Source: Paracoccaceae bacterium
GTDB taxonomy: Bacteria > Pseudomonadota > Alphaproteobacteria > Rhodobacterales > Rhodobacteraceae
Assembly (NCBI GenBank): GCA_947449875.1
Contig: CANFSY010000018.1
Coordinates: forward strand, 1-32,487
Length of the DNA: 32,487 nucleotides
Reading direction: 5' to 3'
This document shows positions 5,307 to 32,476 of this stretch, one piece after another. Numbering within the stretch: position 1 is the first letter of the stretch; the number at the start of each line of letters is the position of its first letter. The notes under the pieces are model-generated. The model ran no database searches and was not told where the DNA came from. It saw only the letters and a list, made by a program, of their open reading frames with translations. The translations under genes were made by a program, and so were the position numbers.

Positions 5307-5343
5307 GCCATTCCCACGACATCAACGGACTGTTTGTGCGCTG

Positions 5344-6283: not shown

Positions 6284-6314
6284 TTCGGTTTGCGCGTTTT
6301 GGCGCGAAACCGAA
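6284..6314. promoter_or_regulatory. large inverted repeat in the glpR-glpD intergenic region, probable GlpR operator
   Basis: Arms TTCGGTTT (6284-6291) and AAACCGAA (6307-6314) are perfect complements. Inside them CGCG (6293-6296) and CGCG (6303-6306) extend the symmetry with one extra base. The left arm lies in AATGTTCGGT (6279-6288), close to the E. coli GlpR half-site WATGTTCGWT. A related sequence, AACGAATGTT, occurs at 6133-6142 close to the glpR start. A TTGACA at 6323-6328 just downstream could be a -35 box for glpD, but no convincing -10 was found. The pattern fits a repressor operator controlling both divergent transcripts; protein binding is inferred. Confidence 0.5.
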
Positions 6315-6376
6315 AAAAATAGTTGACACAGGGGGTTCAAATGGTGCCCCCTGCGACTCGTTCGGAGGGACTGCAC

Positions 6377-9071: not shown

Positions 9072-9074
9072 GCT

Positions 9075-10160: not shown

Positions 10161-11032
10161 TGGATAAGACGCAAAACAACAAAGCGTGGTTCTTGGTGCT
10201 GCCTGTCTTGGTGATCGTGGCCTTTTCTGCCGTGATCCCGCTGATGACGGTGGTGAACTATTCGGTCAACGACACCTTTGGCGAGAACGAGTTCTTCTGG
10301 AATGGCCTTGGCTGGTTCGAAGACATGATCGCCTCTGACCGGATGCACAGCGCCTTGGGGCGGCAGGTGCTGTTTTCAGCCATCATTCTGGCGATAGAGG
10401 TGCCCTTGGGCATCTTTATCGCGCTGCACATGCCCAAAAAGGGGTTTTGGGCCAGTTTCTGTCTGGTTCTGATGGCCTTGCCGCTGCTGATCCCGTTCAA
10501 CGTGGTGGGCACGATCTGGCAGATCTTTGGCCGTGTCGACATTGGCCTTTTGGGGCATGGCTTGGCGAGTTTGGGGGTTGATTACAACTACACCAACGAC
10601 GCGCTGGATGCGTGGATCACCATTATCGTGATGGATGTCTGGCACTGGACTTCGCTTGTGGCCTTGCTGTGCTATGCCGGATTGCAATCAATCCCGCAGG
10701 CCTATTACCAAGCCGCCCGCATCGACCAAGCCAGCCGGTGGAGCGTGTTTCGCTTTATCGAGCTGCCCAAGATGTCAGGCGTCTTGCTGATCGCCGTGCT
10801 GTTGCGCTTTATGGACAGCTTCATGATCTACACCGAACCTTTCGTTGTCACCGGCGGTGGCCCGGGCAATTCGACCACCTTCTTGTCGATTGATCTGGTC
10901 AAAATGGCCGTGGGGCAGTTCGACCTTGGGCCGGCGGCGGCGTTTTCGATCATGTATTTCTTGGTGATCTTGCTGGTGTCTTGGGTGTTTTACACCGTGA
11001 TGACCACCCTTGATAACGCGGAGACGAAATGA
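10160..11032 (+). CDS. glpP: glycerol ABC transporter permease GlpP
   Basis: Encodes 290 residues of an inner-membrane permease of the MalF type with about six transmembrane segments, the first at about residues 11-31. The EAA-type loop reads QAYYQAARIDQASRWSVFRFIELPKM, the contact point for the ATPases. A conserved LLRFMDSFMIYTE and GGGPGNSTTFLS stretch follows. The ATG at 10160 shares one base with the glpT stop (TGATG), so translation is coupled. It pairs with GlpQ to form the glycerol channel. A paralogue lies at 4434-5306 on the other strand. Confidence 0.9.
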   Translation: MDKTQNNKAWFLVLPVLVIVAFSAVIPLMTVVNYSVNDTFGENEFFWNGLGWFEDMIASDRMHSALGRQVLFSAIILAIEVPLGIFIALHMPKKGFWASFCLVLMALPLLIPFNVVGTIWQIFGRVDIGLLGHGLASLGVDYNYTNDALDAWITIIVMDVWHWTSLVALLCYAGLQSIPQAYYQAARIDQASRWSVFRFIELPKMSGVLLIAVLLRFMDSFMIYTEPFVVTGGGPGNSTTFLSIDLVKMAVGQFDLGPAAAFSIMYFLVILLVSWVFYTVMTTLDNAETK

Positions 11033-11835
11033 TGCGCGCCCGCTCTTCTGCCATTGTCATGACCGTTTATCTGCTGTTCTTGCTGATCCCGATCTATTGG
11101 CTGATCAACATGAGCCTAAAGACGAACACCGAGATCACATCCACCTTTACCCTGATCCCCGCCAACCTGACCTTTGCCAATTATGTCACGATCTTGACCG
11201 ATCCGTCGTGGTATATGGGCTATGTCAATTCGCTGATCTATGTCGTGCTCAACACGCTGATTTCGATCACCGCGGCGCTGCCTGCGGCCTATGCCTTTTC
11301 GCGCTACAGTTTCATGGGCGACAAGCATCTATTCTTTTGGCTGCTGACCAACCGCATGTCGCCCCCTGCGGTTTTTGCGCTGCCCTTCTTTCAGCTGTAT
11401 TCCTCCGTTGGCCTGTTTGACACGCATATCGCCGTGGCTTTGGCGCATTGCCTGTTCAACGTGCCTTTGGCGGTGTGGATCTTAGAAGGCTTCATGCGCG
11501 GCGTGCCAAAGGAAATCGACGAGACAGCCTATATCGACGGCTACGGGTTCGGGCGCTTCTTTGTGCGCATCTTTATGCCGCTGATCGCGAGCGGCATCGG
11601 GGTGGCAGCGTTCTTTTGCTTTATGTTCTCGTGGGTGGAACTGCTTTTGTCGCGCACGCTGACCTCGGTTTACGCCAAATCCATCGCCTCGACGATGACA
11701 CGCACCGTGTCGGCCAGCGGGATGGATTGGGGGGTTCTGGCGGCTGCGGGGGTGTTAACGATCATCCCGGGGGCTTTGGTGATCTATTTCGTGCGCAACT
11801 ACATAGCCAAGGGCTTTGCCCTGGGGAGGGTATGA
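11029..11835 (+). CDS. glpQ: glycerol ABC transporter permease GlpQ
   Basis: Encodes 268 residues of a MalG-type inner-membrane permease. The EAA-type loop is IDETAYIDGYGFGRFFVRIFMP. Other segments are PAAYAFSRYSFMGDKH, ALAHCLFNVPLAVWILEGF and the C-terminal YFVRNYIAKGF. The first of two consecutive ATG codons (11029) overlaps the glpP stop as ATGA; the second ATG at 11032 is an alternative. It is the partner of GlpP. The symbol here is the ABC permease, not the E. coli glycerophosphodiesterase of the same name. It overlaps the downstream DUF2160 gene by four bases. Confidence 0.9.
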   Translation: MMRARSSAIVMTVYLLFLLIPIYWLINMSLKTNTEITSTFTLIPANLTFANYVTILTDPSWYMGYVNSLIYVVLNTLISITAALPAAYAFSRYSFMGDKHLFFWLLTNRMSPPAVFALPFFQLYSSVGLFDTHIAVALAHCLFNVPLAVWILEGFMRGVPKEIDETAYIDGYGFGRFFVRIFMPLIASGIGVAAFFCFMFSWVELLLSRTLTSVYAKSIASTMTRTVSASGMDWGVLAAAGVLTIIPGALVIYFVRNYIAKGFALGRV

Positions 11836-12236
11836 TGACCGCTGCCCGTTGGAACAGCCTGTACCTTGGCCTTGGCGTTCTTATGGCCGCCATTCTGGGC
11901 TTTCTTTTCTGGTCCGTGCCGCGCGATGACAGCGGCATGCTGTGGTATGACCCGATGATCCCCGGCGGCTGGATGGCGTGGACCTTTCCGGTTGCCTTGT
12001 TCTTTTATCTGATCGCCAGCTTGCTGATCATCTTCACGCTGCTGGCCGTCCGCTTTCCCGAAACACCCCGTCGCGGCATTTTGCGCATTGAAACGACGCG
12101 CGGAGATCGGTTGTTTATCACGCTCTTGGGCTCGGCCTATATCAATCTGGTCTGGCTCTTTTTCTTCGGTGCGCCGCTGACGTGGCCGCTGATCCTATGC
12201 CTGATTTATGCCACAGCGGTGTTCCGCTGGGTGTAA
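11832..12236 (+). CDS. DUF2160 small integral membrane protein of the glycerol transporter locus
   Basis: Encodes 134 residues with three to four hydrophobic segments (about 10-29, 48-72, 94-111 and 114-132). Between them is a predicted cytoplasmic stretch, FPETPRRGILRIETTRGDR. This is the DUF2160 family, found between the permease and binding-protein genes in GlpSTPQV-type loci. Its role is unproven; an accessory transporter subunit or assembly factor is likely from its fixed position. The start can be either ATG at 11832 or 11835; GGGAGGG just upstream serves both, and the first overlaps the glpQ stop. An 83-base gap follows before glpV. Confidence 0.85.
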   Translation: MMTAARWNSLYLGLGVLMAAILGFLFWSVPRDDSGMLWYDPMIPGGWMAWTFPVALFFYLIASLLIIFTLLAVRFPETPRRGILRIETTRGDRLFITLLGSAYINLVWLFFFGAPLTWPLILCLIYATAVFRWV

Positions 12237-12258
12237 AACAGGACGAACGACGCCGGAC

Positions 12259-12277
12259 GGGTGGGCGATGCCTACCC
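12259..12277 (+). promoter_or_regulatory. stem-loop between the membrane genes and glpV
   Basis: GGGTGGGC (12259-12266) pairs with GCCTACCC (12270-12277) through eight pairs, one a G-U, around a GAT loop. There is no T run after it, so it is unlikely to be an efficient terminator. Hairpins at this position in binding-protein operons often protect the downstream mRNA from decay and allow more binding protein than permease. That role is inferred here. Confidence 0.4.
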
Positions 12278-12319
12278 CAAGGCAAAACGGCAAGACTCAT
12301 CAACTTCTGGGAGGAAAAC

Positions 12320-14041
12320 GTGAGACTAAGACACACCACCACCGCGATGGCGCTTGCGCTGATCGCCTGCGGCATGCCGGCTTTCGCCGACATGGATGCA
12401 GCCAAGGCCTTCTTGGATACCGAAATCGGCGACCTGTCGACGCTGAGCCGTGCGGATCAAGAAGCCGAAATGCAATGGTTCGTCGACGCCGCCAAGCCCT
12501 ATGCAGGCATGGAAATCAAGGTCGTCTCCGAAACCATCGGCACGCATGAATACGAATCCAAAGTGTTGGCTCCGGCCTTCACCGCCATCACCGGCATCAA
12601 GATCACCCACGATCTGATCGGCGAAGGCGACGTTGTTGAAAAGCTGCAAACGCAAATGCAGTCGGGCGAAAACATCTATGACGCCTATATCAACGACTCT
12701 GACCTGATCGGCACCCACTGGCGCTACCAGCAGGCCCGTAACCTGACCGACTGGATGGCAGGCGACGGCAAAGACGTCACCAACCCCGGCCTTGATATTG
12801 CCGACTTTATCGGCACGTCTTTCACCACCGGGCCGGATGGCAAACTGTATCAGCTGCCCGACCAGCAGTTCGCGAACCTGTACTGGTTCCGCTACGACTG
12901 GTTCAACGATCAGAAAACCAAAGACGATTTCAAAGCCAAGTATGGCTATGATCTGGGCGTTCCGGTCAACTGGTCGGCCTATGAAGACATCGCCGAATTC
13001 TTCACCGGTCGCGATATGTCCTATATGGGCGGGCCGACCTCGGTCTTTGGCAACATGGACTATGGTAAGAAAGACCCGTCCTTGGGCTGGCGTTACACCG
13101 ACGCGTGGATGTCGATGGCCGGTATGGGCGACAAGGGTGAACCCAACGGCCTGCCGGTCGACGAATGGGGCATCCGCGTCAACGAAAAGTCGCAGCCGGT
13201 TGGCTCTTGCGTTGCGCGTGGCGGTGCCACCAACGACGCGGCCGCTGTTTACGCTGTGACCAAGGCCATCGAATGGCTGCAAAAGTACTCGCCTCCGGAA
13301 GCCGCGGGCATGACCTTTGGCGAAGCAGGTCCGGTTCCCGCACAAGGTGCCGTGGCCCAGCAGATGTTCTGGTACACCGCCTTTACCGCAGCTTCGGTTG
13401 CGCCTGGCACACCCGTGATGAACGAAGACGGCACGCCCAAGTGGCGCATGGCCCCCTCGCCGCACGGCGCTTACTGGTCTGAAGGCACCAAGATCGGCTA
13501 CCAAGACGCCGGTTCGTGGACCTTGATGAAATCCACCCCCGTTGACCGCGCCCAAGCCGCTTGGCTTTATGCGCAGTTCGTCGTCTCCAAGACGGTGGAC
13601 GTGAAGAAATCTGACGTTGGCCTGACCTTTATCCGTCAATCCACCATCGACAGCCAGCACTTCACCGATCGCGCCCCCAAACTGGGTGGTTTGATCGAGT
13701 TCTACCGCTCGCCCGCCCGCGTTCAGTGGTCGCCCACTGGCACGAACGTGCCGGACTATCCCAAGCTGGCACAACTGTGGTGGCAGAACATCGGCGACGC
13801 CATGTCGGGTGCCAAAACCCCGCAAGAGGCTTTGGACAGCCTGTGCGCCGAGCAAGAGAAAGTCATGATCCGTCTGGAGAAATCCGGCGCTCAGGGCGAT
13901 CTGGGTCCGGTCATGAACGAAGAGAAAGATCCGCAATTCTGGCTGGATGAGCCCGGTTCGCCGGTGGCCAAGCTGGACAACGAAAAGCCGCAGGGTGAAA
14001 CCATCGCCTATGACGAGCTGATCAAGTCCTGGCAGAAGTAA
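12320..14041 (+). CDS. glpV: glycerol ABC transporter substrate-binding protein GlpV
   Basis: Encodes a 573-residue periplasmic binding protein, long for the class but normal for this glycerol-binding subfamily. The N-terminus is a Sec signal peptide (MRLRHTTTAM, hydrophobic core, AFA before the cut near residue 23). The mature part begins DMDAAKAFLDTEI. The start codon is GTG at 12320, chosen because GGGAGGA lies just upstream and it places the signal peptide correctly; earlier in-frame ATGs lie inside the preceding gene. It presents substrate to GlpP/GlpQ. A strong terminator follows 15 bases after the stop. Its substrate is inferred from the operon (glpD, glpK) rather than from binding residues. 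Confidence 0.9.
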   Translation: MRLRHTTTAMALALIACGMPAFADMDAAKAFLDTEIGDLSTLSRADQEAEMQWFVDAAKPYAGMEIKVVSETIGTHEYESKVLAPAFTAITGIKITHDLIGEGDVVEKLQTQMQSGENIYDAYINDSDLIGTHWRYQQARNLTDWMAGDGKDVTNPGLDIADFIGTSFTTGPDGKLYQLPDQQFANLYWFRYDWFNDQKTKDDFKAKYGYDLGVPVNWSAYEDIAEFFTGRDMSYMGGPTSVFGNMDYGKKDPSLGWRYTDAWMSMAGMGDKGEPNGLPVDEWGIRVNEKSQPVGSCVARGGATNDAAAVYAVTKAIEWLQKYSPPEAAGMTFGEAGPVPAQGAVAQQMFWYTAFTAASVAPGTPVMNEDGTPKWRMAPSPHGAYWSEGTKIGYQDAGSWTLMKSTPVDRAQAAWLYAQFVVSKTVDVKKSDVGLTFIRQSTIDSQHFTDRAPKLGGLIEFYRSPARVQWSPTGTNVPDYPKLAQLWWQNIGDAMSGAKTPQEALDSLCAEQEKVMIRLEKSGAQGDLGPVMNEEKDPQFWLDEPGSPVAKLDNEKPQGETIAYDELIKSWQK

Positions 14042-14056
14042 GATCTGACCAACAGG

Positions 14057-14086
14057 GGGGCGGGGGCTTTGGCCCTCGCCCCTTTT
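14057..14086 (+). terminator. rho-independent terminator after glpV
   Basis: An 11-bp G+C-rich stem (14057-14067 with 14072-14082, one G-U pair) closes a TTTG loop and is followed directly by TTTT (14083-14086). It lies between glpV and glpK, so glpK is expressed by readthrough or from its own start site. Confidence 0.85.
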
Positions 14087-14123
14087 GCTATGTTCTACGA
14101 TGTTTTGTGACAAAGGCCCCAAG

Positions 14124-15602
14124 ATGACCGAAATTCTTGCCATTGATCAGGGCACCACATCGACCCGCGCTATTCTGTTTTCCCAAGATTTGCGGCCGAT
14201 CACGCAGGCGCAAGAAGAGTTCACACAGCATTTCCCCAAGTCCGGCTGGGTCGAGCATGATCCCGCCGATCTGTGGCGCACGACGCTGTCGACCGCCCGC
14301 GCGGTCTTGGCGCGCACCGATATTGCAAAGGTGGCCGCGATCGGCATCACCAATCAGCGCGAAACCACCCTTTTGTGGGACCGTGAGACGGGCGCGCCCC
14401 TCGCCAACGCCATCGTCTGGCAAGACCGCCGCAGTGCTGATATTTGCACCGCCCTGAAAGCGGCCGGTCACGAGCCTATGGTGAATGCCCGCACCGGCTT
14501 GTTGTTGGATCCCTATTTCAGCGGCACCAAGATCAAATGGCTGCTCGACACGATCCCCGACGCCCGCGCCAAGGCCGAGGCGGGCAAACTGGCCTTTGGC
14601 ACCGTGGACAGCTACCTGATCTGGCACCTGACAGGGGGCCGCCTGCACGCAACCGACGCCACCAACGCCGCGCGCACGCTTTTGTACAATATCAAAACCG
14701 GCACTTGGGATGCCGAAATTTGCGCTTTACTCGGCATTCCCATGTCGCTGTTGCCGCAGGTCAAAGACAGCGCTGCCGAGTTTGGATCCACCGATCCTGC
14801 CATCTTCGGCCGCGCCATTCCCATACGCGGTGTCGCAGGGGATCAGCAGGCGGCGACCGTGGGGCAAGCTTGTTTTGAACCCGGCATGATGAAATCCACC
14901 TACGGGACAGGGTGTTTTGCCCTGCTGAATACCGGTTCTGACATGGTTTTGTCCAAGAACCGCTTGCTGACCACTATCGCCTATCAGCTGAACGGTACGC
15001 CGACCTATGCCTTGGAGGGGTCGATCTTTGTGGCGGGCGCTGCCGTGCAATGGCTGCGCGACGGGCTGAAGATCATCGCCACCGCCGCACAAACCCAAGG
15101 CTTGGCCGATCAGGCCGACAGGGGCCAAGACGTGGTTTTGGTGCCGGCTTTCACCGGTTTTGGTGCACCCTATTGGCGGCCCGAATGTCGCGGGGCGATC
15201 TATGGGGTGACGCGCGGCACGGGGGCGCCGGAACTGGCCAAGGCGGCGCTGGAAAGCGTGGGCTACCAAACCCGCGACCTGCTGGAAGCCATGCGCGCCG
15301 ATTGGGGAACTGTGGCCGAGGGCGTCTTGCGGGTGGACGGCGGCATGGTCGCCAGCGATTGGGCCATGCAGTTTCTGGCCGATATTCTGGGAGCGCCCGT
15401 GGATCGGCCCGTGGTGACGGAAACAACCGCTTTGGGGGCCGCCTATCTGGCGGGATTGCAAAGTGGATTGTGCCCCGAACCGGCGCGGTTTGCCGAAAGC
15501 TGGGTGCGCGAACGCCGCTTTGCCCCCACGATGGCGCCAGAAACACGCGCCGCAAAATACGCGCGCTGGGGCAGAGCGGTTGCGGCAACGCTGACGGTAT
15601 GA
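14124..15602 (+). CDS. glpK: glycerol kinase
   Basis: Encodes 492 residues of a FGGY-family kinase that phosphorylates glycerol to sn-glycerol-3-phosphate using ATP, trapping it in the cytoplasm. The N-terminal phosphate loop is [12 protein letters not shown]. The glycerol-site region has ITNQRETT and WQDRR, the FGGY signature region includes KSTYGTGCF, and the C-terminal domain has [20 protein letters not shown]. Length matches GlpK. The ATG at 14124 has AAAGG about 8 bases upstream. Its stop overlaps the start of the iron-type alcohol dehydrogenase gene by ATGA. A terminator between glpV and glpK implies separate or attenuated expression. Its product is the substrate of GlpD. Confidence 0.96.
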
Positions 15603-16735
15603 CCCCCTTCGCCCTGCACACCCCGCCGCGCGTTCTGCTTGGACGCGCCGAAGCGGCGAAAGCGCCAGCCCTGATCCGTGCGTTCGGGGATCAAGGCGTT
15701 GTGGTGCACGGCGCAACCCCTTTGCGCGCCGCTTGGCTTATCAATGCCTTACGTGACGCCGGCTGCGCTGTGACGCCCGTCGCCTGCGCGCAAGAACCCA
15801 CCTTGGCCATGCTGGAAGCAGCCCTTGCCAAGGTGCGCGGCCTGTCGCCGCAGTGGGTTGTGGCGATCGGCGGCGGTGCCGTGTTGGATATGGGCAAAGC
15901 GCTGGCCGGACTGATCCCCGCGCCTGCCCCTGCGATAGACTATCTGGAAATCGTCGGGCGCGGGCTGGTGTTGCCCGACCCGACTTTGCCCTTCATCGCC
16001 CTGCCCACCACCGCAGGCACAGGTGCCGAGGCCACCAAGAACGCCGTCATCGGCCTGCCTGATCATGGCCGCAAGGTAAGCCTGCGCCACGATGGGCTGA
16101 TGGCGCGTTTGGTGATTGTCGATCCGGCCCTAACCGATGGCTGCCCGCGCGCGGTCACGCTGGCGTCGGGGATGGATGCCGTGTGTCAGGTGGTGGAAAC
16201 CTATGTCTCACCCCGTGCGACCCCCTGCACCGACGCCTTGACGCGCCCTGCAATCGGCGCAGGCCTTGCCGCCTTGCAGCGTTTGATGCAAGCCGAAGAC
16301 CCTGACGCCCGCGACCAGATGGCTTGGGTCAGCCTGTCCAGCGGGATGGCCTTGGCGAACGGCGGGCTTGGGGCTGTGCATGGCTTGGCAGGCCCCATTG
16401 GCGGTGTTTGCGGCGCGGCACATGGTGCGATTTGTGGCGCGCTTTTGGCGCCGGTGCTGGCGCTAAACCGCAGCCGCGCCACAGGCCAAGCCGCCGCCCG
16501 ATTAGAGGACGTCTGCCAGATCATCGCCGCCGCTTTGGACTGTGCCCCGCAAGATGCGCCGCAATCTTTGGCCAACTGGGGCAAGACGGTCGGGCTTTTG
16601 TCTTTGCGCGAACTTGGCCTTGATCCGGCGCTGCATGCCCACATCGCCGAGGCGGCTTTGACCTCTTCGTCGATGAAGGGCAACCCCGTGGTCTTGACCA
16701 AATCTGATGCGCTGATGCTGCTGAAACAGGCCTAG
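15599..16735 (+). CDS. iron-containing alcohol dehydrogenase
   Basis: Encodes 378 residues of the group III (Fe-ADH) family. The nucleotide-binding loop is [10 protein letters not shown] (91-100), followed by PTTAGTGAE (136-144). By alignment with FucO the metal ligands are Asp193, Gln197, His261 and His275. The second ligand, usually His in GMDALTH, is Gln here. I recall Gln in some Fe-ADH subfamilies, so this need not mean loss of activity. The gene starts inside the glpK stop (ATGA), tying it to glycerol metabolism. Possible jobs are oxidation of glycerol or a related short polyol, or reduction of an aldehyde. The substrate cannot be read from sequence. A stem-loop overlaps its stop codon. 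Confidence 0.85.
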
Positions 16736-23513: not shown

Positions 23514-24545
23514 CTAGGGTGCAATCGGCCACAAGATCGTTTGCAGCCCCCCCAGTTTGGAATTGCTGAGCTCGCCAAAGGGCGCGACAAATTCTGCCAG
23601 CGGCGGGGCGTAAAAGGTGGAAAGGTAGGCGCTGGACCATGCCAGTTCAAACCCCTGCACCTTGTCTGACCCGTCAAAGTAGCTTTGCTTGGCTTTGGCA
23701 AGGCGCGTGACCTCGGCAGGGTCGGCAAAGGCGGCCAGCGTAAAGCGGATGCTGCGGTGTAAACTGCCGTCACAGGCCGCAAACAGAGTATGACCCTCGC
23801 GCTGCAACAGCACCGCCGTTGGCACCAAAGCGGTCAGCGCGTGCAGCTGGTAGTGCAAGGCCAGACCCTTGCGCGCCATTTCCAGCGGCAGGCTACCGTC
23901 AGGGCTGGCGGTGCAGGCGACAAGGCGCACGCTGGCATCGGCCCAATCGATCATCGCCTGATCGCGCAGGGTCAGCCCAACCCGCGCGACCGCCAAAGCC
24001 GCCCACGCCCGCAGGTTGTTCTTTTGCGCATTGGGCGGGGCTTCGGTGTCAAAAAACACCATCGTGGCGCGCGCCAATTGGGCCAGCCATGCCTCGATCT
24101 GTTCGCGATCAGGGTCTTTGCCCACCATGGGCTTCACCTCGTCCCACGCAAAGGCAAGGCCCGCCAGCCGCGAGGGGGCCGACAGCTTGGCGTTGAGCGT
24201 CTCCAGTTGACCCAAAGCCCCCGCCTTGGCCCAAGCCGCCAGACCAGCATTGACGCAGTCAGCCGCAGCGGGATCGTGGGTTGAAAGGGCAGCATTTGCG
24301 GCAAGGATCATGGCCGTGATGAAATCGTCCAGCGGCTTGAGCTGGGCGTTCACCTCGGCATTGCTGGCGGTGTCAAAGGTCGAATGGCTTTTGCCGCCGC
24401 TGATATAACGGCTGCCGTGATCCAGTTTGATCACAGGCGCAGCCAAGGGCGGGCAGGCATAGGGCTTGGGCGTGTCTTGGCCCTGTGCAGGCAGACCGCG
24501 CAGGGTGGCGCAGGCCAAAAGGGCCCAGATCACAGCGCGGCTCAA
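23514..24545 (-). CDS. AlgL-like PL5-family protein with altered active site
   Basis: Encodes 343 residues resembling periplasmic alginate lyase AlgL (about 370 aa), which trims or clears mannuronate polymer during export. Shared features are a Sec signal, GSRYISGGKSHSTFD (family SKYxGSDxARATLN), a helical toroid with WAKAGAL, and GSLPLEMARKGLALHYQLHA (family GFLPNELKRRxRALAYHNYA). The catalytic motif NNHxYW is NNLRAW at 176-181, so the active-site His is Leu178 and the aromatic is lost. The family catalytic Tyr appears kept as Tyr232. Activity is doubtful, or the substrate differs. The start is taken as TTG 24545, overlapping the previous stop as TTGA and giving a proper signal peptide. It is last in the seven-gene operon. 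Confidence 0.72.
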   Translation of the reverse strand: MSRAVIWALLACATLRGLPAQGQDTPKPYACPPLAAPVIKLDHGSRYISGGKSHSTFDTASNAEVNAQLKPLDDFITAMILAANAALSTHDPAAADCVNAGLAAWAKAGALGQLETLNAKLSAPSRLAGLAFAWDEVKPMVGKDPDREQIEAWLAQLARATMVFFDTEAPPNAQKNNLRAWAALAVARVGLTLRDQAMIDWADASVRLVACTASPDGSLPLEMARKGLALHYQLHALTALVPTAVLLQREGHTLFAACDGSLHRSIRFTLAAFADPAEVTRLAKAKQSYFDGSDKVQGFELAWSSAYLSTFYAPPLAEFVAPFGELSNSKLGGLQTILWPIAP

Positions 24546-27301
24546 TTGGATACACCTTGCGTGGCCATGCGTGTGACCAGATCCATAGCCCCCGCGTCGC
24601 CGGCCTCTGCTGCGCGTTGCAACCACCTTTGGGCAAGGGGCTGCGACAGGGCAACACCCACCCCGAACGCATAGCTTTGCGACAAAAGCACCATCGCGGG
24701 GGCATCGCCCGCCTCGGCCGCCTGCCGCAGCCAATCGGTCGCGGCGGCGCGCTCTGCGGGTTTTGTGGCTGCCTCGGCAAGACGGCGGGCATGTTCGCGC
24801 ATGGCCGCAGGGTTGCCCGCCTCGGCCGCCTTTTGGTACAGCGCATCAAGATCAAGCCGCAGGCCGACTGTCACCGCAAGGGCCGGATTGCGGCGCGTCA
24901 GCTCGGCCAAAAGGTCAGGAAGGCCCACGGGGTCGCTGCGCGCGATCAAGGTCACGTACAAGTCGGCAGCGCGCGCGGCGTCATAATCCGGCGCGCCGCG
25001 CACCGCATAAAGGGCCAGCAGGCGCTGCACAGCGGTTTTGCTGCCCATGGCGTTGGATTTTTCATACAGGGCGGCGGCCATCGGCACGCCTTGGTGCCCC
25101 AGCAGCGCAAGTTGGGCATCGCCCAGCACGACCATCTGCCACGGATCATTGCCGGTCAGCTCTGCCGCGACAGCCAGCCAGCGGCGCGCTTGCCTGTCGT
25201 TGCCCAAGGTCGCCCAAACATTCGAAAACGCGATGGCTTCGGGAAAATCGCACCCCATCACCTCGGTCGCGCGGGCGCGGTAAAGGTCTTGTTGGGCCGG
25301 ATCGGTCAGAAAGGGCATCCCAAACAGCAAAGCGCTAAAGTCACCGCGCGCGGCGATCACTTTGGCATAGACCGCATAGGTTGCAGCGGCGGTTGGAAAG
25401 CGGGCAGGATCGGCGATTTGCAGCAAAGACATCGCAGCGCCCAAGCCTTGATCGGCCAAGGGCTCTAGCAAAGCCAAGGCTTGGGTGCGGTTGGCAAGGT
25501 CAGGCTGTTGCAGCAGCCCAGCGGCAAGTTTCATCGCAGCCCCCATATCGCCCATGCCAAGAGCCTTGCGAAACAGCGCAAACGCCGCCTCACGCGCGGC
25601 GGGTGTTTTGGCGCGCGACAAGTCGCGTTGGGCGATTGTGCTGGTGACAGCGGGAATGTCTGCAGCGGCGTTGACCCAATAGGCCGTGGCTGACGCGGGG
25701 GCATGCGTGCGGTCTAACACCGCCAGCATATCGGCCAAAGAGGTGGTCTGCCCCGCCAGCGCATGGCTTTGCAAAGCGGCCATTGTTTGCGGATCGGCTT
25801 TCAGGGTCAGGGCGTCCAGCTCGGCCGGGCTGATATCGGGCGCAGCTGCGCCAATCGAGGCATCTACCCCTTGCCAATAGGCCACCTCTCCAAGGTGGGG
25901 GGCATCGGGGGCTTTGCACAAAAGGGCGCTTTCGATGGCACTGACCGATCCCCCGTCGCCAAGGTTTGACACCAGTTGGATCAGCGGGTCGAGGGCTGCG
26001 TAAAACTGCGCGTCGGTTTGGGCTGTGCCCATCGCAGCATCGGCCAAAGCGCGCACGGCAGAGGGGTCTTGGCGTTTGGCCGCCTCCTCTAACAACGGGC
26101 GGGCTGCGGTTTGGCCCTGCCAGCGGCCTTGATCTTCCAAGATCATCTCGGCCTGTTTGGCAAAGGCCCAGCCGGGGGCGTTGGGTTGGGCCGTCAGGTG
26201 CTGCAACGTGGCGATGTACAACGGGCGCAGATCGGGCTGGGTGTTCAGGCGCGGTTCCAAAAAGTCGGCAAAGCGCACAAGGGCGGCGTGATCGCCCAAA
26301 GCGGCGGCGCGTTGGTACAAGGCCTGCGCCGCCGGAATGTCTTGGGGCGCAAGGGCCCCCACCTCAAGAATACGGCCCAGCGCCACCATGGCATAGGGCA
26401 GCCCGCCCTTGGCCGCTTGGTGCAGATAGGTCATCAACACCGCGTTGTCCTTGGTCACAAGCTCGGATTGCAAATGGTATTCCACCACCCGCCACGCCGA
26501 CACGGGGTCCCCCAGATCGGCGGCAAAACGGTACCACCGCAGCGCCATAGCATGATCAATCGTCACCGTGGTGCCCGCCGTATACTCGCGCGCAATGCGG
26601 GCGATCCGGTCGCAGATCAACGGGTCCATCTGGCCGACCAGCGCGCCAAAGGCCATGGTCACAGCCAGATCAGGCGGAATATCCCATCCCGCCGGCGATT
26701 GTCCGGCCAAGGTCAACCGCGTCAGGGCCAGCAGGGCATCAGCATTTCCCGCGTAGCCTGCCGACACCAGCAGGTCACCCGCCCGCACCGCGTCTTTTGC
26801 AATGCCTGTGCCGTCGCTCAAAAGGCCCGACAGCACAAACTGCGTGCGAGACGAGGTGTCGTCGGCATGGGCCAGCACTTTCGCCACCAGCCCCGCTTTG
26901 GCAAGATCTTGCAGGCGTCCGGTGGCAATCATCTGGCCAATGCGCGCCAAAAGCACGTCATCCGGCGTGAACTTGGGCGAGGCTTTCGCCAAAGCCAAGA
27001 TGGCCTTTTGGATCGTGTCATCCCAAGCCAGCGCGTCGATCTCGGCCAATCGGCGCAGGTCGCGGGTGATCAGGCCGGGGTCGCGCCCGCTCAGGCTTAG
27101 GCCGTCCCACTTGCGCCAGACGGCGGTCAGGTCGGCGTCCGGCGCACGGGCCTGACAGATCGGCTGCACCGCCATATCGGGGGGGGCAAAATCAAGCGTC
27201 AGGGTTTGAACGCTTTGCGCTGGCGCGGGGGGGGCCAGTGCCGCCCAGAGTGTGACAGCCCACAAGGTGACACCCCGGGCCGTCCATTTGAAACTGATCA
27301 T
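24542..27301 (-). CDS. large periplasmic Sel1/TPR-like repeat protein, AlgK-like
   Basis: Encodes 919 residues, about twice the length of Pseudomonas AlgK. A Sec signal (hydrophobic core, PPAPAQ near residue 29) has no lipobox cysteine, so it should be soluble in the periplasm rather than a lipoprotein. The body is an array of Sel1-like helical pairs. Clear examples are ALRWYRFAADLGDPVSAWRV (about 250), YQRAAALGDHAALVRFADF (about 330), YQKAAEAGNPAAMREHARRL and the last unit QRWLQRAAEAGDAGAMDLV (about 900). Such scaffolds guide polymer-export complexes in alginate and cellulose systems. Function here is inferred from operon context. The ATG at 27301 lies 18 bases after algF; the stop overlaps the AlgL-like gene. 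Confidence 0.75.
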   Translation of the reverse strand: MISFKWTARGVTLWAVTLWAALAPPAPAQSVQTLTLDFAPPDMAVQPICQARAPDADLTAVWRKWDGLSLSGRDPGLITRDLRRLAEIDALAWDDTIQKAILALAKASPKFTPDDVLLARIGQMIATGRLQDLAKAGLVAKVLAHADDTSSRTQFVLSGLLSDGTGIAKDAVRAGDLLVSAGYAGNADALLALTRLTLAGQSPAGWDIPPDLAVTMAFGALVGQMDPLICDRIARIAREYTAGTTVTIDHAMALRWYRFAADLGDPVSAWRVVEYHLQSELVTKDNAVLMTYLHQAAKGGLPYAMVALGRILEVGALAPQDIPAAQALYQRAAALGDHAALVRFADFLEPRLNTQPDLRPLYIATLQHLTAQPNAPGWAFAKQAEMILEDQGRWQGQTAARPLLEEAAKRQDPSAVRALADAAMGTAQTDAQFYAALDPLIQLVSNLGDGGSVSAIESALLCKAPDAPHLGEVAYWQGVDASIGAAAPDISPAELDALTLKADPQTMAALQSHALAGQTTSLADMLAVLDRTHAPASATAYWVNAAADIPAVTSTIAQRDLSRAKTPAAREAAFALFRKALGMGDMGAAMKLAAGLLQQPDLANRTQALALLEPLADQGLGAAMSLLQIADPARFPTAAATYAVYAKVIAARGDFSALLFGMPFLTDPAQQDLYRARATEVMGCDFPEAIAFSNVWATLGNDRQARRWLAVAAELTGNDPWQMVVLGDAQLALLGHQGVPMAAALYEKSNAMGSKTAVQRLLALYAVRGAPDYDAARAADLYVTLIARSDPVGLPDLLAELTRRNPALAVTVGLRLDLDALYQKAAEAGNPAAMREHARRLAEAATKPAERAAATDWLRQAAEAGDAPAMVLLSQSYAFGVGVALSQPLAQRWLQRAAEAGDAGAMDLVTRMATQGVSN

Positions 27302-27319
27302 TGGGTTCTCTTTTCCGGA

Positions 27320-27934
27320 CTATTTGGCGTAGGTGTTTTGCGTGGCATAGGCGGTGTAGGCCCCCGCACGGCCCGAAAAGACCACCGTCACACCCGCCCG
27401 CCGCGCCATCTTGATGGCGGGCAATTTGGCAAGGGTCTTGCCCGCATGCTGCACCTCAAAATCCAGCGTCAAGGGCGCTTTCAGCGTCACACGCCGAGAG
27501 GTGTCTGGGGCGATATCGCTAAGCGCCATGGCCGCGACGGCGGGCACATACAGATCAACCAGCGGCAGATCTGAATCGTTGTAAAAAACCAAATCCGCCT
27601 TGGCCGGGCTGATGGTGATCATGTCTTGCATCAGATGCAAGGCCCCGTCCGCCCCCGGCGCAAAGGTGTAAAAAGAGGCGGGGGCGATCTGGCCTTTGCC
27701 TTCAAGCCCGCCCAAGGCCACGACAATCGGGCCAGCGGCGACCTGCACAAAGGGCGAAACACCGCCTGCAAACCCGTCCAGCGTGATGCCGTTGATCACG
27801 GCCACCGTCTCGCCGGGGGCCACGATGCGCACGAAAGAGGCGTTCGGGTCGGCGGGGGCTTCGTACAGATCCTGCGCTGCGGCTTTCAGCGGCAGGGCGG
27901 CAAGGGCCAACAGAAGAAGAAATTTCGCGGTCAT
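27320..27934 (-). CDS. algF: alginate O-acetylation protein AlgF
   Basis: Encodes 204 residues: a signal peptide (MTAKFLLLLALAALPLKAAA) then AlgF-type beta-rich domains. The start of the mature protein, DLYEAPADPNASFVRIV, parallels LYGPxAPKGSAFVRV of AlgF, and the FYTFAPG and DLVFYNDSDLPLVDLYVP segments fit the later part. AlgF is a periplasmic adaptor of the acetylation complex with AlgI, AlgJ and AlgX. The ATG at 27934 overlaps the algX stop by ATGA and has AAAGGA upstream. Sequence identity to Pseudomonas AlgF appears low, so the assignment leans on layout and neighbours. Confidence 0.75.
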   Translation of the reverse strand: MTAKFLLLLALAALPLKAAAQDLYEAPADPNASFVRIVAPGETVAVINGITLDGFAGGVSPFVQVAAGPIVVALGGLEGKGQIAPASFYTFAPGADGALHLMQDMITISPAKADLVFYNDSDLPLVDLYVPAVAAMALSDIAPDTSRRVTLKAPLTLDFEVQHAGKTLAKLPAIKMARRAGVTVVFSGRAGAYTAYATQNTYAK

Positions 27935-29229
27935 GACGGGTCCTTTGCAAAATGGCATAGTGACAAGGTGGTGTCCGCACTGACCGGTTGATCGAAGGTC
28001 ACGGACAGGGTTTGCAAATCGGGCAGCCAGACGGTGCCCAGCGATTGGAAGAACCGCCCCGAGGCTTGGACCCGCGCGCCCCGTTCCATCACCGCCGTGC
28101 GGGGGATGCCCGTTTTGGTCAGAAAGTGAAACGCGGCGCGGCGCGCGACGTCGGTGCCCAGATCGGCAAGGGTCGCGCTATTTGGGTGCAAGGCCAGCCC
28201 GCGCAGATCAGCGGTCAGCGTGTTGGGGGCGGTCTGTTTTGCGGGCAAGCCTTGGGTGCAGGTGTTGCCCGACGCGGCAATCAACTCTTCCAGCGGGTCG
28301 GGGCCGAATTGGGCAAGGTTGTTGTAGATCGGGTTTTCCCAGATCAAAAAGCGCGGTCTGGCGGCGACAAAATCGCGCGAGATCATGTAAGACGTGATCG
28401 CGCCGAACTGGTTACCGCCGGTCACGGCATAATTCACCACCTCCAGCCCCGTCGTCTGCGACAAAGACCCCGCAAAATTGGCAAGCGACGCATCGGAAAA
28501 AGACGTGCCGACCAGCACAATCTGCGGGGCATGGTCGCCTGCAAAGATGTCTGTCTTGATCGCAGCATCATCCACCTTTGCCGTCACTTGGGTATGTGCT
28601 GCCACGCGGGGCAGTTCCAACTGGCAATTGCCTTGCAAGATGCGCCGCATGGTCGAGAACGAGTCCGTCACAGGCCCCAAGGTCGTGACATATGTGTCTT
28701 GCGGCATATCGGCATAAAACGGCTGGGCCTTGATCTGCACGGCAATCGCCTTGGCCGCCAACAGCGCCCCCGAAGCTGTCCAATGAAAATCGGTTTTGAA
28801 AAAGGGCGGGGTTGCGGGGTCGGCATGGGACAAAGCCGTCAGCAGGTCGGGGGCAAGGATGCCGTGTTTTGTCAGGCGGGCGATGGTGTCTTTGTACAAA
28901 AGGGTCGCGGTGGCACTGTCAAACTGGGTGTCTTTGGCTGCGGCGGGCAATTGCGCTGTCATCACCTCGCCCTTGGTGGGGACGGCGGCATAGATCAGTG
29001 TGGTGCCTTGATCGGCCAAAGCGGCCGACAGGGCCGCCAGACGTTCGATCACCGGATCTTCCACCGCGTGCAGCATCCGCAGATCGGCCAGCAAGCGAAA
29101 AAAGGTGCCGTCTGCCCCCTCGATCGAGGGTAAGGCGGATTGGGTGTCAGTAAACGCGCAGCCATAGGCCGAGGTTTGGGCTGCTGCAGGCGTGGCCAAA
29201 AGCAATGCAAGCGCAAGATAGGGGGTCAT
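27931..29229 (-). CDS. algX: AlgX-like SGNH acetyltransferase with C-terminal domain
   Basis: Encodes 432 residues with a cleavable signal (TPAAAQ near residue 18). The SGNH-like catalytic domain shows the DxH pair in KTDFHWTASGA (Asp147, His149) and the serine in GTSFSD (Ser243), matching the triad of AlgX. A C-terminal region of about 100 residues (about 330-432) sits where AlgX carries its carbohydrate-binding module. AlgX acetylates alginate in the periplasm. It is soluble, unlike the membrane-anchored AlgJ-like protein two genes upstream. It overlaps the Sel1 gene before it and algF after it by ATGA. Confidence 0.8.
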   Translation of the reverse strand: MTPYLALALLLATPAAAQTSAYGCAFTDTQSALPSIEGADGTFFRLLADLRMLHAVEDPVIERLAALSAALADQGTTLIYAAVPTKGEVMTAQLPAAAKDTQFDSATATLLYKDTIARLTKHGILAPDLLTALSHADPATPPFFKTDFHWTASGALLAAKAIAVQIKAQPFYADMPQDTYVTTLGPVTDSFSTMRRILQGNCQLELPRVAAHTQVTAKVDDAAIKTDIFAGDHAPQIVLVGTSFSDASLANFAGSLSQTTGLEVVNYAVTGGNQFGAITSYMISRDFVAARPRFLIWENPIYNNLAQFGPDPLEELIAASGNTCTQGLPAKQTAPNTLTADLRGLALHPNSATLADLGTDVARRAAFHFLTKTGIPRTAVMERGARVQASGRFFQSLGTVWLPDLQTLSVTFDQPVSADTTLSLCHFAKDPS

Positions 29230-29957
29230 GGCGCGTCCTTTGCGGCAAGGGGTGCGGGTGTGTCCAACAGACGCAGAAGATTAAGGGCGGTGACACGGGC
29301 CTGAAGGTTGGTGCCCTTGGCGGCAACCTTCAGGGCCGCGCGCGCGCCGGAATGGTCAAGGGCTGCATCAGCGGGGTCGGCAATCAGGGCCAAGGCCAGT
29401 TTCATCGCGGCGGCCGGATCGTTTTGGCCCGCCATAGCCAGAAAATGTTGCGCTTGGGGCAGGTCTTGGCCAAAGGGTGTGCCTTTGGCATACATCTGGC
29501 CCAAAGCTTGGGCGGCGCGGGCATTGCCGCTTTTGGCTTGAATGGTCAGGGCGTTCAGGCATTGCGTCAACAGGCGCGGGCCGTAGCGGTCGCCCTCGGC
29601 CACCAGCAGTTTGACAAGCGGCGCCACGGCAAAGGCCCGCCCTGTGTAGGCCGCGATGGCATAGTAATGCGCCGCAGCCCCCGCCTTGGCGGGCTTGGCA
29701 CTGGCCTGCAACACCTTGGCATAGCGATAGGCCGCAAGCCCGTCGCCAGCATCAGCCAAGGCGCGCAGCTGATCAGATGACATGTTTTGCCCCGTCACCA
29801 TGCTTTTGCGCGCGGCTTGCAGCGCAAGGCTGGGCAAATCGCGGGTTTGGGTGACTTTGTTGTCAAAGACAAAATCCACCGCGACAAGCTGGGCCGGGCA
29901 CGGCGTGGCCCCACCCAGCAGCGCGACAACCGACAAGAAGATAAGCGCCCTACCCAT
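29226..29957 (-). CDS. periplasmic Sel1-repeat protein of the alginate-type operon
   Basis: Encodes 243 residues with a signal peptide (MGRALIFLSVVALLGG, PCPAQ cut near 23). Helical pairs of Sel1 type follow: LAAYRYAKVLQASAKPAKAG, AHYYAIAAYTGRAFAVAPLV and ARAAQALGQMYAKGTPFGQD. The Cys in the PCPAQ stretch does not fit a lipobox well, so it is likely soluble. It lies between the AlgJ-like and AlgX-like genes, overlapping both (8 and 4 bases), so it is translated with them. A role as an assembly scaffold for the acetylation complex is inferred. The Pseudomonas alginate operon has no gene at this place. Confidence 0.65.
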   Translation of the reverse strand: MGRALIFLSVVALLGGATPCPAQLVAVDFVFDNKVTQTRDLPSLALQAARKSMVTGQNMSSDQLRALADAGDGLAAYRYAKVLQASAKPAKAGAAAHYYAIAAYTGRAFAVAPLVKLLVAEGDRYGPRLLTQCLNALTIQAKSGNARAAQALGQMYAKGTPFGQDLPQAQHFLAMAGQNDPAAAMKLALALIADPADAALDHSGARAALKVAAKGTNLQARVTALNLLRLLDTPAPLAAKDAP

Positions 29958-31050
29958 TTGACGCCACCACGCTTGGCGCAGCGCCTGAGATCGGGGGGGA
30001 AGGGTCCACCGTCTGCCACAGCTTGGGGTCGGTCAGATAGCGCACCGGAAACTCCCAGATGACCAATCGGGCGGGGGTCGCCTTAGATGCGTCGCTTTGC
30101 AGATAGGTTTGCATGGGGCGCACGGGGCCAAGGCCGACCTCCGCCAGATTTTGCACATCGCGCCCCAAAGCGCGGGTCAAGGCATCGCCAAAACCCCAAT
30201 CAGGATTGGCACTGTAACTGGTGCCGATCAGCACAATGTCCAAGGGCGCGTCAGCGAAGATATCGGCAGGGGCGGCGGTGGGTGTGATCTCGGTCACGGC
30301 GACTGTTTCGGGCAAAAGGCCCAACAGGGGGGCAAGATTGTCTTGGGTGACAAAGCGGATCAGATCGCCGGTTAAGGTTTTTTGCGTGACCTTGCCTGTG
30401 GTGTAGGTCAGCGCGCCGTGGGCCAGCTTGGCAGCAACAGCACCCGCCGTTAGCGCCGCGCCAAAGGGGGTCCAATGGGTGTCGGTGGCCAGAAAGACCG
30501 GCTGGCCCTGCCCGATCAACGCCGGACGCGGGTCAATCGTGGCGATGCCCGCCTGCGCGAGAAGGGTTAGGAACCTGTCATCCAGCTTGGCCATGGCGAC
30601 AGACAAGATCGGGTCGCGCACATGGGCCATTTCCACATCAATCTTGGCGGGCAAAGGCAGCAGCACCAACTGCGTGCCCTGCGCGGTGAGCCGCTTTTGC
30701 ACGTCTGCGATCTGCAAGATCGTGGCGTGCAGGGTGGCTTCGTCAGGCAAGGGGCGGGTTTCCTCGGTGGTGAAAAGCCAGCCGTCGCGGCCCACCAAGG
30801 CGCCTGTGCGCGCCTCTCCCAACACAGCATAACGCGCAGCGCCGATCAGCCCGAACGAGGGGGCAAAATGCGGCAAGGTGGTTTTATAGCGCTGTTCAAA
30901 CTCATGGGTTAACCCGCCCGCCAACAGATCGGCCTGTGGCAGCGTCAGCGCGGTTGGCGGGCCCATCAGAACAGACAGGTTGGCTGCGATGCCGTAGCCG
31001 AACAACAACACAGGCACCACAAGGCGGGCAGCTTGGAACAAAACACGCAT
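29950..31050 (-). CDS. algJ: AlgJ-like membrane-anchored SGNH acetyltransferase
   Basis: Encodes 366 residues. An N-terminal membrane anchor (LVVPVLLFGYGIAANLSVL) is followed by a periplasmic SGNH-like domain. It has GRDGWLF at 87-93, a family hallmark, and the DxHW motif TDTHWTPFGA (Asp190, His192) with the serine in GTSYS (Ser278). This is the AlgJ/AlgX (ALGX/ALGJ) fold. With no C-terminal binding domain and with an uncleaved anchor it is closer to AlgJ. It would take acetyl groups from AlgI. It starts 7 bases after the algI stop, with AGGTG upstream, and overlaps the Sel1 gene. Confidence 0.78.
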   Translation of the reverse strand: MRVLFQAARLVVPVLLFGYGIAANLSVLMGPPTALTLPQADLLAGGLTHEFEQRYKTTLPHFAPSFGLIGAARYAVLGEARTGALVGRDGWLFTTEETRPLPDEATLHATILQIADVQKRLTAQGTQLVLLPLPAKIDVEMAHVRDPILSVAMAKLDDRFLTLLAQAGIATIDPRPALIGQGQPVFLATDTHWTPFGAALTAGAVAAKLAHGALTYTTGKVTQKTLTGDLIRFVTQDNLAPLLGLLPETVAVTEITPTAAPADIFADAPLDIVLIGTSYSANPDWGFGDALTRALGRDVQNLAEVGLGPVRPMQTYLQSDASKATPARLVIWEFPVRYLTDPKLWQTVDPSPPISGAAPSVVASNG

Positions 31051-31057
31051 GAGGCAC

Positions 31058-32476
31058 CTAAAACTGAAAATACAAGAACGGAGAGACGCTTTGCTCGGCC
31101 AGCTTCATCAAGGCCAGCGTGGCCAGCAGGCTGGTCAAAACCGCCGGAACCAGCGTGTTACCCCAGCCCAAAGCCGCATCTGCGGGGTAAAGATGGGTCC
31201 GCGCAAAGCGGTTCAAGCGCGGCTCATAGGCGGCATAGGCCACGGCGAGGGTCAAAAAGATCAGGCTTTCGCGCGAGATTTGCAGCCCCGTGGCCGCATC
31301 GGTGGCCCAGCCGTTCACCCCCAGCAGTCCGGCATAGATACCCACCGCCTGCATCGGATCCGCGGCGCGAAACATCACCCAACCCAGCAGCACGATCAGC
31401 AGTGTCAGGCCAAGGGCTGCGGGCGACTTGCCCACTGCGCGGCCTGTCGCACGCTCTGCCGCAAGCCAGCCGCCGTGCCACAGACCCCACAGCACAAAGG
31501 TCATATTGGCCCCGTGCCACAGCCCGCCCAACAGCATCACCACCATCAGATTGATATAGGTGCGCACCTGCCCCAAGCGGTTGCCACCCAAGGGAATATA
31601 CAGATAATCGCGCAGCCACACCGACAGGCTGATATGCCAGCGCCGCCAGAACTCGGTGATCGAGCGGCTGATATAGGGCGTCTCGAAGTTGGGCCGGAAG
31701 TGAAAGCTGATCATCAGGCCAAGGCCGATGGCCATGTCACTATAGCCCGAAAAATCAAAGTAAAGCTGCATCATATAACTGACTGCGCCCAGCCAAGACA
31801 GCGCCAGAGACGGCCTATCCGCCGCAAAAGCCAGATTGGCCAAGGGTGCCACCGTATCGGCCAAAAGCACCTTTTTGGCCAAACCGATGGCAAAAAGCGT
31901 GGTTCCGTCGATAAAAAGCGCAAGCGAATGGGTGCGGTGCGCGAATTGGTGGGTCAGATCTTTGAACCGCAGGATTGGGCCTGCCACCAACTGCGGGAAA
32001 AGCGCGATAAAGGCCGCAAAGTCGAAAAAGCGGCGCGTGGCTTCGGCGTCTTTGCGGTAGACATCCACCAGATAGCTGACAGCGTGAAAGACATAAAACG
32101 ACACGCCAATCGGCAAGATCAACCGCCAGTGCACCCCCAAGCCCGCCGCCGTGGTGCCCCACAAGGTGGCAAAGCTTTCGATGAAGAAATTCAGGTATTT
32201 AAAGACACCCAGCACCGCCAGACATCCAATCAGCCCGATCGTCAGATAGGCACGCGCCGCCTTTTGGCTGCGTGCTGCGCCGATGCGGCGACCAAAGGCA
32301 TAGGTCCACACCGTTGTGGCAAACAACAGCGCCAGATAGTCGATCCGCCACCAGCCATAAAAGGCGTAAGAGCCGACCAGTATCGTGACCGACCTGAAGC
32401 GCACAGGTGTGAGGTAATAGACGCCCAAGAACACAGGCAGGAACAGAAAAAGAAACGTTTCTGAAGAAAAAACCAT
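31058..32476 (-). CDS. algI: AlgI-like MBOAT acetyl transferase membrane protein
   Basis: Encodes 472 residues of a polytopic inner-membrane MBOAT protein that carries acetyl groups to the periplasm for exopolysaccharide acetylation. It has the AlgI N-terminus MVFSSETFLFLFLPVFLGVY, the LPIGVSFYVFHAVSYLVDVY segment, DFSGYSDMAIGLG, and RRWHISLSVWLRDYLYIPLGG. The key histidines are His281 in RRWH and the MBOAT His321 in GGLWHGA. Length is close to Pseudomonas AlgI. AGGAG (minus strand, 32487-32483) precedes the ATG by 6 bases at the very edge of the window, so the start is firm. It is the first visible gene of the operon. Related MBOAT proteins acetylate cellulose, so polymer identity rests on the AlgL- and AlgK-like genes. 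Confidence 0.9.
   Translation of the reverse strand: MVFSSETFLFLFLPVFLGVYYLTPVRFRSVTILVGSYAFYGWWRIDYLALLFATTVWTYAFGRRIGAARSQKAARAYLTIGLIGCLAVLGVFKYLNFFIESFATLWGTTAAGLGVHWRLILPIGVSFYVFHAVSYLVDVYRKDAEATRRFFDFAAFIALFPQLVAGPILRFKDLTHQFAHRTHSLALFIDGTTLFAIGLAKKVLLADTVAPLANLAFAADRPSLALSWLGAVSYMMQLYFDFSGYSDMAIGLGLMISFHFRPNFETPYISRSITEFWRRWHISLSVWLRDYLYIPLGGNRLGQVRTYINLMVVMLLGGLWHGANMTFVLWGLWHGGWLAAERATGRAVGKSPAALGLTLLIVLLGWVMFRAADPMQAVGIYAGLLGVNGWATDAATGLQISRESLIFLTLAVAYAAYEPRLNRFARTHLYPADAALGWGNTLVPAVLTSLLATLALMKLAEQSVSPFLYFQF

Follow-up and report, generated by a model that had tools for sequence, protein, structure and literature searches.

A divergent alginate-type operon of Alphaproteobacteria predicted to make polymannuronate and to retain altered periplasmic enzymes

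Introduction

Which polymer is made by an alginate-type operon whose periplasmic enzymes have changed their active sites, and why are such proteins kept? The question is raised by seven minus-strand genes, overlapping or nearly touching, at the right end of the contig CANFSY010000018.1 from a Paracoccaceae bacterium (32,487 nucleotides, hereafter the window). The window is the entire contig C18 of a draft genome (G000; 3.05 Mb, 86.6% complete). A first-pass annotation had proposed an alginate-type polysaccharide operon in a probable Rhodobacteraceae genome. The list of open reading frames (ORFs) confirmed that the seven genes are real, their Pfam and PDB family matches agreed with the alginate type, and a Rhodobacterales-type genome was borne out. 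Taken as a whole, it is probable that the window holds the 3' part of a synthase-dependent exopolysaccharide operon, of an alginate type found in Alphaproteobacteria, which would act as a mannuronan exporter with former enzymes serving as the conduit; the scaffold roles, the lost activities, the product chemistry and the regulation in this joint explanation are read from sequence comparison.

Results and discussion

The complete operon

The draft genome was searched with the proteins of relatives. One end of contig C1 carries algD, alg8 and alg44 up to codon 244, and a small contig (C177, 3233 bases) carries the end of alg44, algA and algG. The lack of alg8, alg44, algG and algD reported in the first pass was thus due to a contig break; only the lack of algE held, as AlgE was not found in G000 (best PF13372 match E 0.155). 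A cellulose-type or other synthase as the partner, which the first pass had suggested looking for in the flanks, was ruled out because algD and alg8 of G000 sit at the matching contig end.

In a genome of the same genus (G006), the whole set is located on one contig in the order algD-alg8-alg44-algA-algG-algI-algJ-sel1s-algX-algF-sel1L-algL. The same order was found on Salipiger and Loktanella plasmids and, unannotated, in Rhizobium sp. T1473, and a shorter form without algI, algJ and algF is present on Jannaschia and Tateyamaria plasmids. Full and shorter forms recur across the relatives, and the full order differs from that of Pseudomonas, as had been proposed. The acetylation genes had also been said to lead the operon. 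This is true of the visible part only: algI stands in first place because the contig stops there (its start is 11 bp from the end), and in G006 it is preceded by algD-alg8-alg44-algA-algG. The gene of the small Sel1-repeat protein (Sel1s) is not an insertion into the acetylation block, nor a part of the acetylation machinery. Loci that lack all of algI, algJ and algF still have it, and therefore it belongs to the core with algX, algL and the gene of the giant Sel1 protein (Sel1L).

Backbone synthesis and the AlgG homologue

AlgD (G000, contig C1) is nearest to the GDP-mannose 6-dehydrogenase 1MFZ (1.3e-129, versus 3.3e-68 for the best UDP-glucose enzyme), and AlgA is of the mannose-1-phosphate guanylyltransferase type. 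Alg8 shares 43-45% identity with Alg8 of the canonical Pseudomonas-type loci. Its catalytic-type motifs DxD and DDK do not vary in 45/45 sequences (41 from the clade and 4 Pseudomonas-type), nor do many of its other polar residues. The GDP-mannose type of AlgD and the conserved Alg8 residues point to polymannuronate as the most likely backbone. AlgA and AlgD would make GDP-mannuronate, and Alg8 would polymerise it together with Alg44.

The β-helix protein of the operon matches the AlgG profile over nearly its full length (99.95%, 371 columns); however, the DPHD block is replaced. The His of this block abstracts the proton in AlgG (PMC4444821). No DPH motif was found in 106 of the 107 AlgG sequences of at least 400 amino acids (aa), or in 92 of the 93 distinct ones; the single exception lies in an N-terminal stretch of the AlgG from locus L018. 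Across the 93 distinct sequences, His does not exceed 30% in any alignment column, and charged residues are missing from the columns conserved at 90% or more. None of the 34 alg8-bearing clade genomes, some of them incomplete drafts, contains a codon pattern for YGxDPH(D/E). Overall, 4 of 40 genomes have the pattern, namely the three canonical Pseudomonas-type genomes (3/3) and G534; it was not found in G729 and G609. Since G729 has a DPHD-bearing ORF which the pattern missed, the pattern is not exhaustive. Since no epimerase active site can be recognised in AlgG, the chain would remain polymannuronate. According to a 2015 review, no natural mannuronan producer is known (PMC4444821).

Distribution and the two variants

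Among 394 genomes drawn from the family, 31 have an alg8 gene of this type. When named genomes were scanned with an AlgL alignment, 170 relatives were obtained, and the best 80 of these 170 were kept (Rhodobacterales, Devosia, Roseibium and Rhizobium). The scan used two patterns, one of which contains the Leu motif described below, so this set is biased on AlgL; the alg8-based survey is the fair set. The operon is carried by Rhodobacterales, Devosia, Roseibium and some Rhizobium. Cultured genera such as Tabrizicola, Gemmobacter, Loktanella and Salipiger are among the carriers, and these and others would be mannuronan producers if the explanation is true. Loktanella salsilacus, Gemmobacter tilapiae and Tabrizicola soli are cultured carriers of the acetylating variant described below, and Fertoeibacter niger RG-N-1a is one of the non-acetylating variant. 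The long ORFs persist across many genera.

The relatives from the AlgL scan and the loci from the alg8 survey were scored with profiles built here. Two variants were distinguished: an acetylating one with algI, algJ and algF, as in the window, and a non-acetylating one in which all three are absent; any of the three genes in view placed a locus in the acetylating class. Among 116 loci with algX, 79 are acetylating, 36 are non-acetylating and 1 is undecided. Some organisms are present twice, as a draft genome and as a named contig. The residue counts of AlgI, AlgJ, AlgX and AlgL take each distinct protein once; the Alg8 tree keeps duplicate organisms. In this tree (quick method; 31 + 16 rows, some organisms twice), the non-acetylating loci form one side of a fully supported branch, which corresponds to one change, and independent losses of acetylation were not supported. 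The suggestion of a distinct family of acetylated uronate systems is supported.

Departures from the order or missing genes, as scored by hidden Markov models (HMMs), were found in L041, L047, L049, L056, L060, L074, L080, L091, L095, L096, L100, L114, L119, L137 and L139; L051 and L061 have algL alone by HMM. Two single copies look broken. The algX on the Tateyamaria omphalii plasmid (L016:14048-15194), which is unannotated as a gene, matches in two pieces in different frames, and the algD of Rhizobium sp. T1473 (L017:2992-4312) consists of two overlapping pieces in different frames. Such breaks may be real or assembly errors.

Two genomes, G221 (L122, L139) and G384 (L124, L137), each have one non-acetylating and one acetylating locus. 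The algD and algA genes were not found within the stretch fetched for their acetylating operons.

Acetylation and the role of AlgX

All four proteins of the O-acetylation module (AlgI, AlgJ, AlgF and AlgX) are encoded in the window, and the Asp-His-Ser triads of AlgJ and AlgX are intact. In the clade, both checked His residues of AlgI are kept in 69 of 70 distinct sequences (the remaining one has a gap), and AlgJ retains Asp and His in 67/67 and Ser in 66/67. The AlgX triad is intact in all 71 distinct sequences from acetylating loci, and is also present in one further AlgX from a locus too short to class. The window operon is predicted to produce O-acetylated polymannuronate; the chain would be acetylated by AlgI, AlgJ, AlgF and the intact AlgX.

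By contrast, none of the 28 distinct AlgX sequences from non-acetylating loci has an intact triad. The Asp is kept in 28/28; whereas the His position is Arg (27) or Gln (1), and the Ser position is Glu (20), Asp (4), Ala (2), Lys (1) or Gly (1). In P. aeruginosa, acetylation depends on these three residues of AlgX (PMC4148444). A model of one AlgX from a non-acetylating locus (predicted local distance difference test, pLDDT, 82.2; 12 sequences) matches P. aeruginosa AlgX (4KNC) over nearly the whole length, with template modelling (TM) scores of 0.72/0.76. With the triad lost and the fold kept, AlgX in these loci is probably retained for something other than catalysis. This would match its role in secretion, as deletion of AlgI, AlgJ or AlgF in P. 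aeruginosa spares secretion and deletion of AlgX compromises it (PMC9734138). In the sister variant, AlgX would therefore stay as a scaffold after the other three proteins have gone. A whole clade that keeps AlgX without AlgI, AlgJ, AlgF and without the catalytic His and Ser offers natural separation-of-function mutants for the question of alginate export.

The lyase-like protein AlgL

The last gene had been called lyase-like rather than a plain lyase, which is correct: it encodes a PL5 protein with the equivalents of Asn201, Arg249 and Tyr256 (P. aeruginosa AlgL numbering; the fold is assigned from sequence), in which the catalytic His is replaced by Leu. His202 is catalytic in P. aeruginosa AlgL (PMC8829089). 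The window copy keeps N240, W244, R288 and Y295, and has L241 at the catalytic His and H298 at the Tyr259 position (numbers refer to the 406-aa ORF). The Asn201, Trp205, Arg249 and Tyr256 positions are kept in all 101 distinct AlgL sequences. The His202 position is Leu in 101/101 and also in 30/30 distinct sequences of the alg8-based survey, which was not selected on AlgL, and the Tyr259 position is His in 100/101. His202 is kept in all 14 AlgL comparators of other lineages. A remodelled, probably weak lyase is favoured for the operon AlgL, because the P. aeruginosa H202A variant was wild-type-like in vivo; a binding protein is a close second. AlgL would thus stay in the system with a remodelled site, as a weak or altered lyase or as a binding protein.

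A different, larger alginate-type locus is present on a plasmid of Rhizobium sp. CC1099 (L019). It has DPHD in a 1249-aa AlgG-containing protein and an intact AlgX triad, and its AlgL has both His202 and a His at position 259. The latter suggests that the second His may have come before the loss of His202.

Regulation and export

The Alg44 homologue matches the Pseudomonas-type Alg44 over its full length (hhalign 99.2%, 324 columns). However, the two Arg residues of the PilZ motif RxxxR occur together in 0/44 Alg44 sequences. No Arg is present in 41 of them, and the other three were judged by eye, one having the first Arg only; whereas RxxxR is present in 6/6 canonical Pseudomonas-type loci. 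No Pfam match to the PilZ domain was obtained in three Alg44 tested. Without the canonical arginines for cyclic di-GMP (c-di-GMP), Alg44 is probably controlled by a route other than c-di-GMP. Of the acetylating loci inspected, 8 of 13 have a LuxR-type regulator gene ahead of algD, and of the non-acetylating ones 0/15; it is not present there in G000 or G006.

The Sel1L model is an all-helical solenoid without a barrel (pLDDT 92.8), and a porin fused to tetratricopeptide repeats in the style of PelB or PgaA was ruled out on this ground. In both sequence and fold, Sel1L is nearest to solved Sel1 proteins. Its C-terminal half matches AlgK (hhalign 95.8%); Sel1L is twice the length of AlgK, and AlgK was not among the 50 Foldseek matches listed. 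The chain would be led through the periplasm by AlgG, Sel1s, AlgX and Sel1L.

No operon gene was assigned as an AlgE porin by Pfam and profile annotation (no barrel predictor was run). PF13372 (Alginate_exp) scored above the cut-off in 2 of 34 alg8-bearing genomes, G317 (L141, L143) and G367 (L142), on contigs other than that of alg8; these could be AlgE-like or unrelated porins. No obvious candidate for a conserved porin gene beside the operon was seen among the 25 largest flank families listed, which were judged by their first residues apart from the PF14099 lyase, the LuxR-type regulator and the RTX protein. Export would use an outer-membrane route other than an operon-encoded AlgE, and the missing AlgE directly raises the question of the path by which the polymer leaves the cell.

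In 13 of 15 non-acetylating upstream stretches and in 0/13 acetylating ones, algD is preceded by a divergent gene of a PF14099-type lyase; some stretches are short, and Pfam was run on two of the 13 lyase members. The PF14099 family includes glucuronan lyases. In G000 (contig C1, L027:8897-11251) and G006 (L010:7355-9748), a large RTX calcium-binding protein is encoded divergently from algD. Its RTX part resembles the R-modules of AlgE4/AlgE6 and many other RTX proteins, and its front half is β-helix-like (by eye) and gave no match to a catalytic module. A role as a secreted DPH epimerase found no support, and the protein is possibly a secreted polymer-acting or polymer-binding one.

Alternative explanations

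Several points weigh against a mannuronan exporter with former enzymes as the conduit. The chain may be modified by an epimerase that belongs to a different family or uses a different motif. The algG of G000 itself reads in two frames on the 3.2-kb contig C177, which may be real or an assembly error on a tiny contig. Many other loci also come from drafts, with a few single genes in pieces. Because the non-acetylating loci group into a single clade in the Alg8 tree, AlgX may have lost its triad just once, with later drift at the Ser position. P. aeruginosa AlgL H202A is inactive in vitro and wild-type-like in vivo, and residual activity was suspected by the authors (PMC8829089), so loss of the His need not abolish function. 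Moreover, the exopolysaccharide of Salipiger mucosus was reported to contain glucose, mannose, galactose and fucose, and the word 'uronic' does not occur in the available text (PMC2953402); this species carries such a locus (L049, where algI was not found). The exopolysaccharide analysed may not be the product of the operon, or the operon may not be expressed in culture.

An ordinary mixed mannuronate/guluronate alginate, in which AlgG epimerises with another active site or an unlinked epimerase acts, is unlikely, and yet it would fit the presence of AlgG in nearly every locus reaching that far. The R-modules of the RTX protein beside algD in G000 and G006, and the DPHD-bearing ORF of G729 that escaped the codon pattern, would also fit. 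Against it, neither a His nor a charged residue is conserved in AlgG, no epimerase catalytic module was matched by the RTX protein, and the codon pattern is missing throughout the alg8-bearing clade genomes, incomplete drafts included. It is improbable that another acidic or neutral polymer, such as acetylated glucuronan or mannan, is made from alginate-like parts, since AlgD is clearly of the GDP-mannose type, AlgA is of the mannose-1-phosphate guanylyltransferase type, and Alg8 shares its conserved residues with the Pseudomonas-type Alg8. The lyase gene adjoining the non-acetylating loci, whose family includes glucuronan lyases, and the neutral-sugar heteropolymer of S. mucosus would speak for such a polymer. 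Decay of dying operons might account for the active-site residues absent in several proteins and for the broken copies of algG (G000), algX (Tateyamaria) and algD (Rhizobium T1473). This is very improbable, as the Alg8, AlgI and AlgJ residues are conserved, four AlgL positions are always kept while the His is always Leu, and the ORFs stay long in many genera. The mannuronan exporter is thus preferred. A fuller statement is more tentative and has somewhat less than an even chance: that these bacteria are natural mannuronan producers with c-di-GMP-independent control and non-AlgE export, in which the epimerase (and in one branch AlgX) would be a dead guide and the lyase would be remodelled.

Comparison with known alginate systems

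The operon shares homologues of AlgD, Alg8, Alg44, AlgA, AlgG, AlgX, AlgI, AlgJ, AlgF and AlgL, and a helical-repeat protein that may be related to AlgK, with the Pseudomonas/Azotobacter operon (algD-8-44-K-E-G-X-L-I-J-F-A). It differs in gene order, in having two Sel1 proteins and no AlgE found, and in the residues lost from AlgG (DPHD), AlgL (catalytic His) and Alg44 (RxxxR); moreover, this family has a natural variant without AlgI, AlgJ and AlgF whose AlgX lost the triad. Among the Pseudomonas-type comparators, the order D-8-44-K-(gap)-G-X-L-I-J-F-A is seen in 5/6, and in the sixth L follows F; the profiles did not identify AlgE, whose place would be the gap.

Rearranged 'atypical' alginate operons which have lost algKE or acetylation genes were described by Bundalovic-Torma et al. 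in 2020 (PMC7112194). They are similar in such gene loss, and the text compared does not mention active-site states. Divergent alginate operons as such are therefore already known; no description was seen of the lost active-site residues or of how these losses go with gene content. Among the literature matches listed, from a search largely outside subscription journals, no title or start of an abstract treats this operon. New here would be an alphaproteobacterial mannuronan-type operon with no recognisable AlgE and with putatively disarmed periplasmic proteins; the window carries its acetylating form, in which AlgJ and AlgX are intact.

The second-type gammaproteobacterial loci L149 and L154 also have an AlgG without DPH; however, they keep the AlgL catalytic His, the AlgX triad and the Alg44 RxxxR. 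Their order is D-A-8-44-K-E-I-J-F-X-L-G (K and E inferred by position; the L149 alg8 was identified separately). These loci represent a second group of possible natural mannuronan makers.

Gene features and neighbouring genes

The features are listed in Table 1. The two ALGX-domain proteins matched PF16822 with E values of 1.8e-65 and 7.5e-51; the closest PDB entry of AlgJ is 4O8V (AlgJ, 1.2e-41) and that of AlgX is 4KNC (AlgX, 1.9e-28). The PF11182 match of AlgF is under the curated Pfam cut-off. Sel1s had no match in the Pfam search of the window proteins, and resembles solved Sel1 proteins in the PDB (best 3.4e-7). The algL ORF as listed is over-long (406 aa, open to 24734); a start at the TTG at 24545, which overlaps the preceding gene's stop codon, gives about 343 aa.

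Table 1. Features of the operon in the window and lyase genes at related loci
Feature	Position	Strand	Remarks
algI, MBOAT O-acyltransferase, 472 aa	31058..32476	-	Pfam PF03062, E 2.7e-27; first visible gene, at contig end
algJ, SGNH-type O-acetyltransferase, 366 aa	29950..31050	-	PF16822 ALGX domain; nearest PDB AlgJ
Sel1s, small Sel1-repeat protein, 243 aa	29226..29957	-	signal-like N-terminus (by eye); core gene
algX, SGNH and C-terminal domain, 432 aa	27931..29229	-	triad D147-H149-S243 intact
AlgX Asp147 codon to Ser243 codon, triad included	28501..28791	-	computed from ORF and alignment
algF, acetylation adaptor, 212 aa	27320..27958	-	PF11182, E 1.1e-6; assigned by position and homologs
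Sel1L, giant Sel1 protein, possibly AlgK-like helical solenoid, 919 aa	24542..27301	-	PF08238; model without β-barrel
algL-like PL5 protein, ~343 aa	23514..24545	-	PF05426, E 1.2e-31
AlgL Leu241 codon, at position of P. aeruginosa AlgL catalytic His202	24012..24014	-	computed from ORF and alignment
PF14099-type lyase members	L013:3569-4624, L016:4837-5787; also L170, L171, L173-L181		

Elsewhere in the window (2220-16735) are ABC sugar-type transporter genes, a glycerol-3-phosphate-type FAD oxidoreductase, an FGGY sugar kinase, an iron alcohol dehydrogenase and a group-1 glycosyltransferase. This is probably a sugar/polyol uptake region with no tie to the operon.

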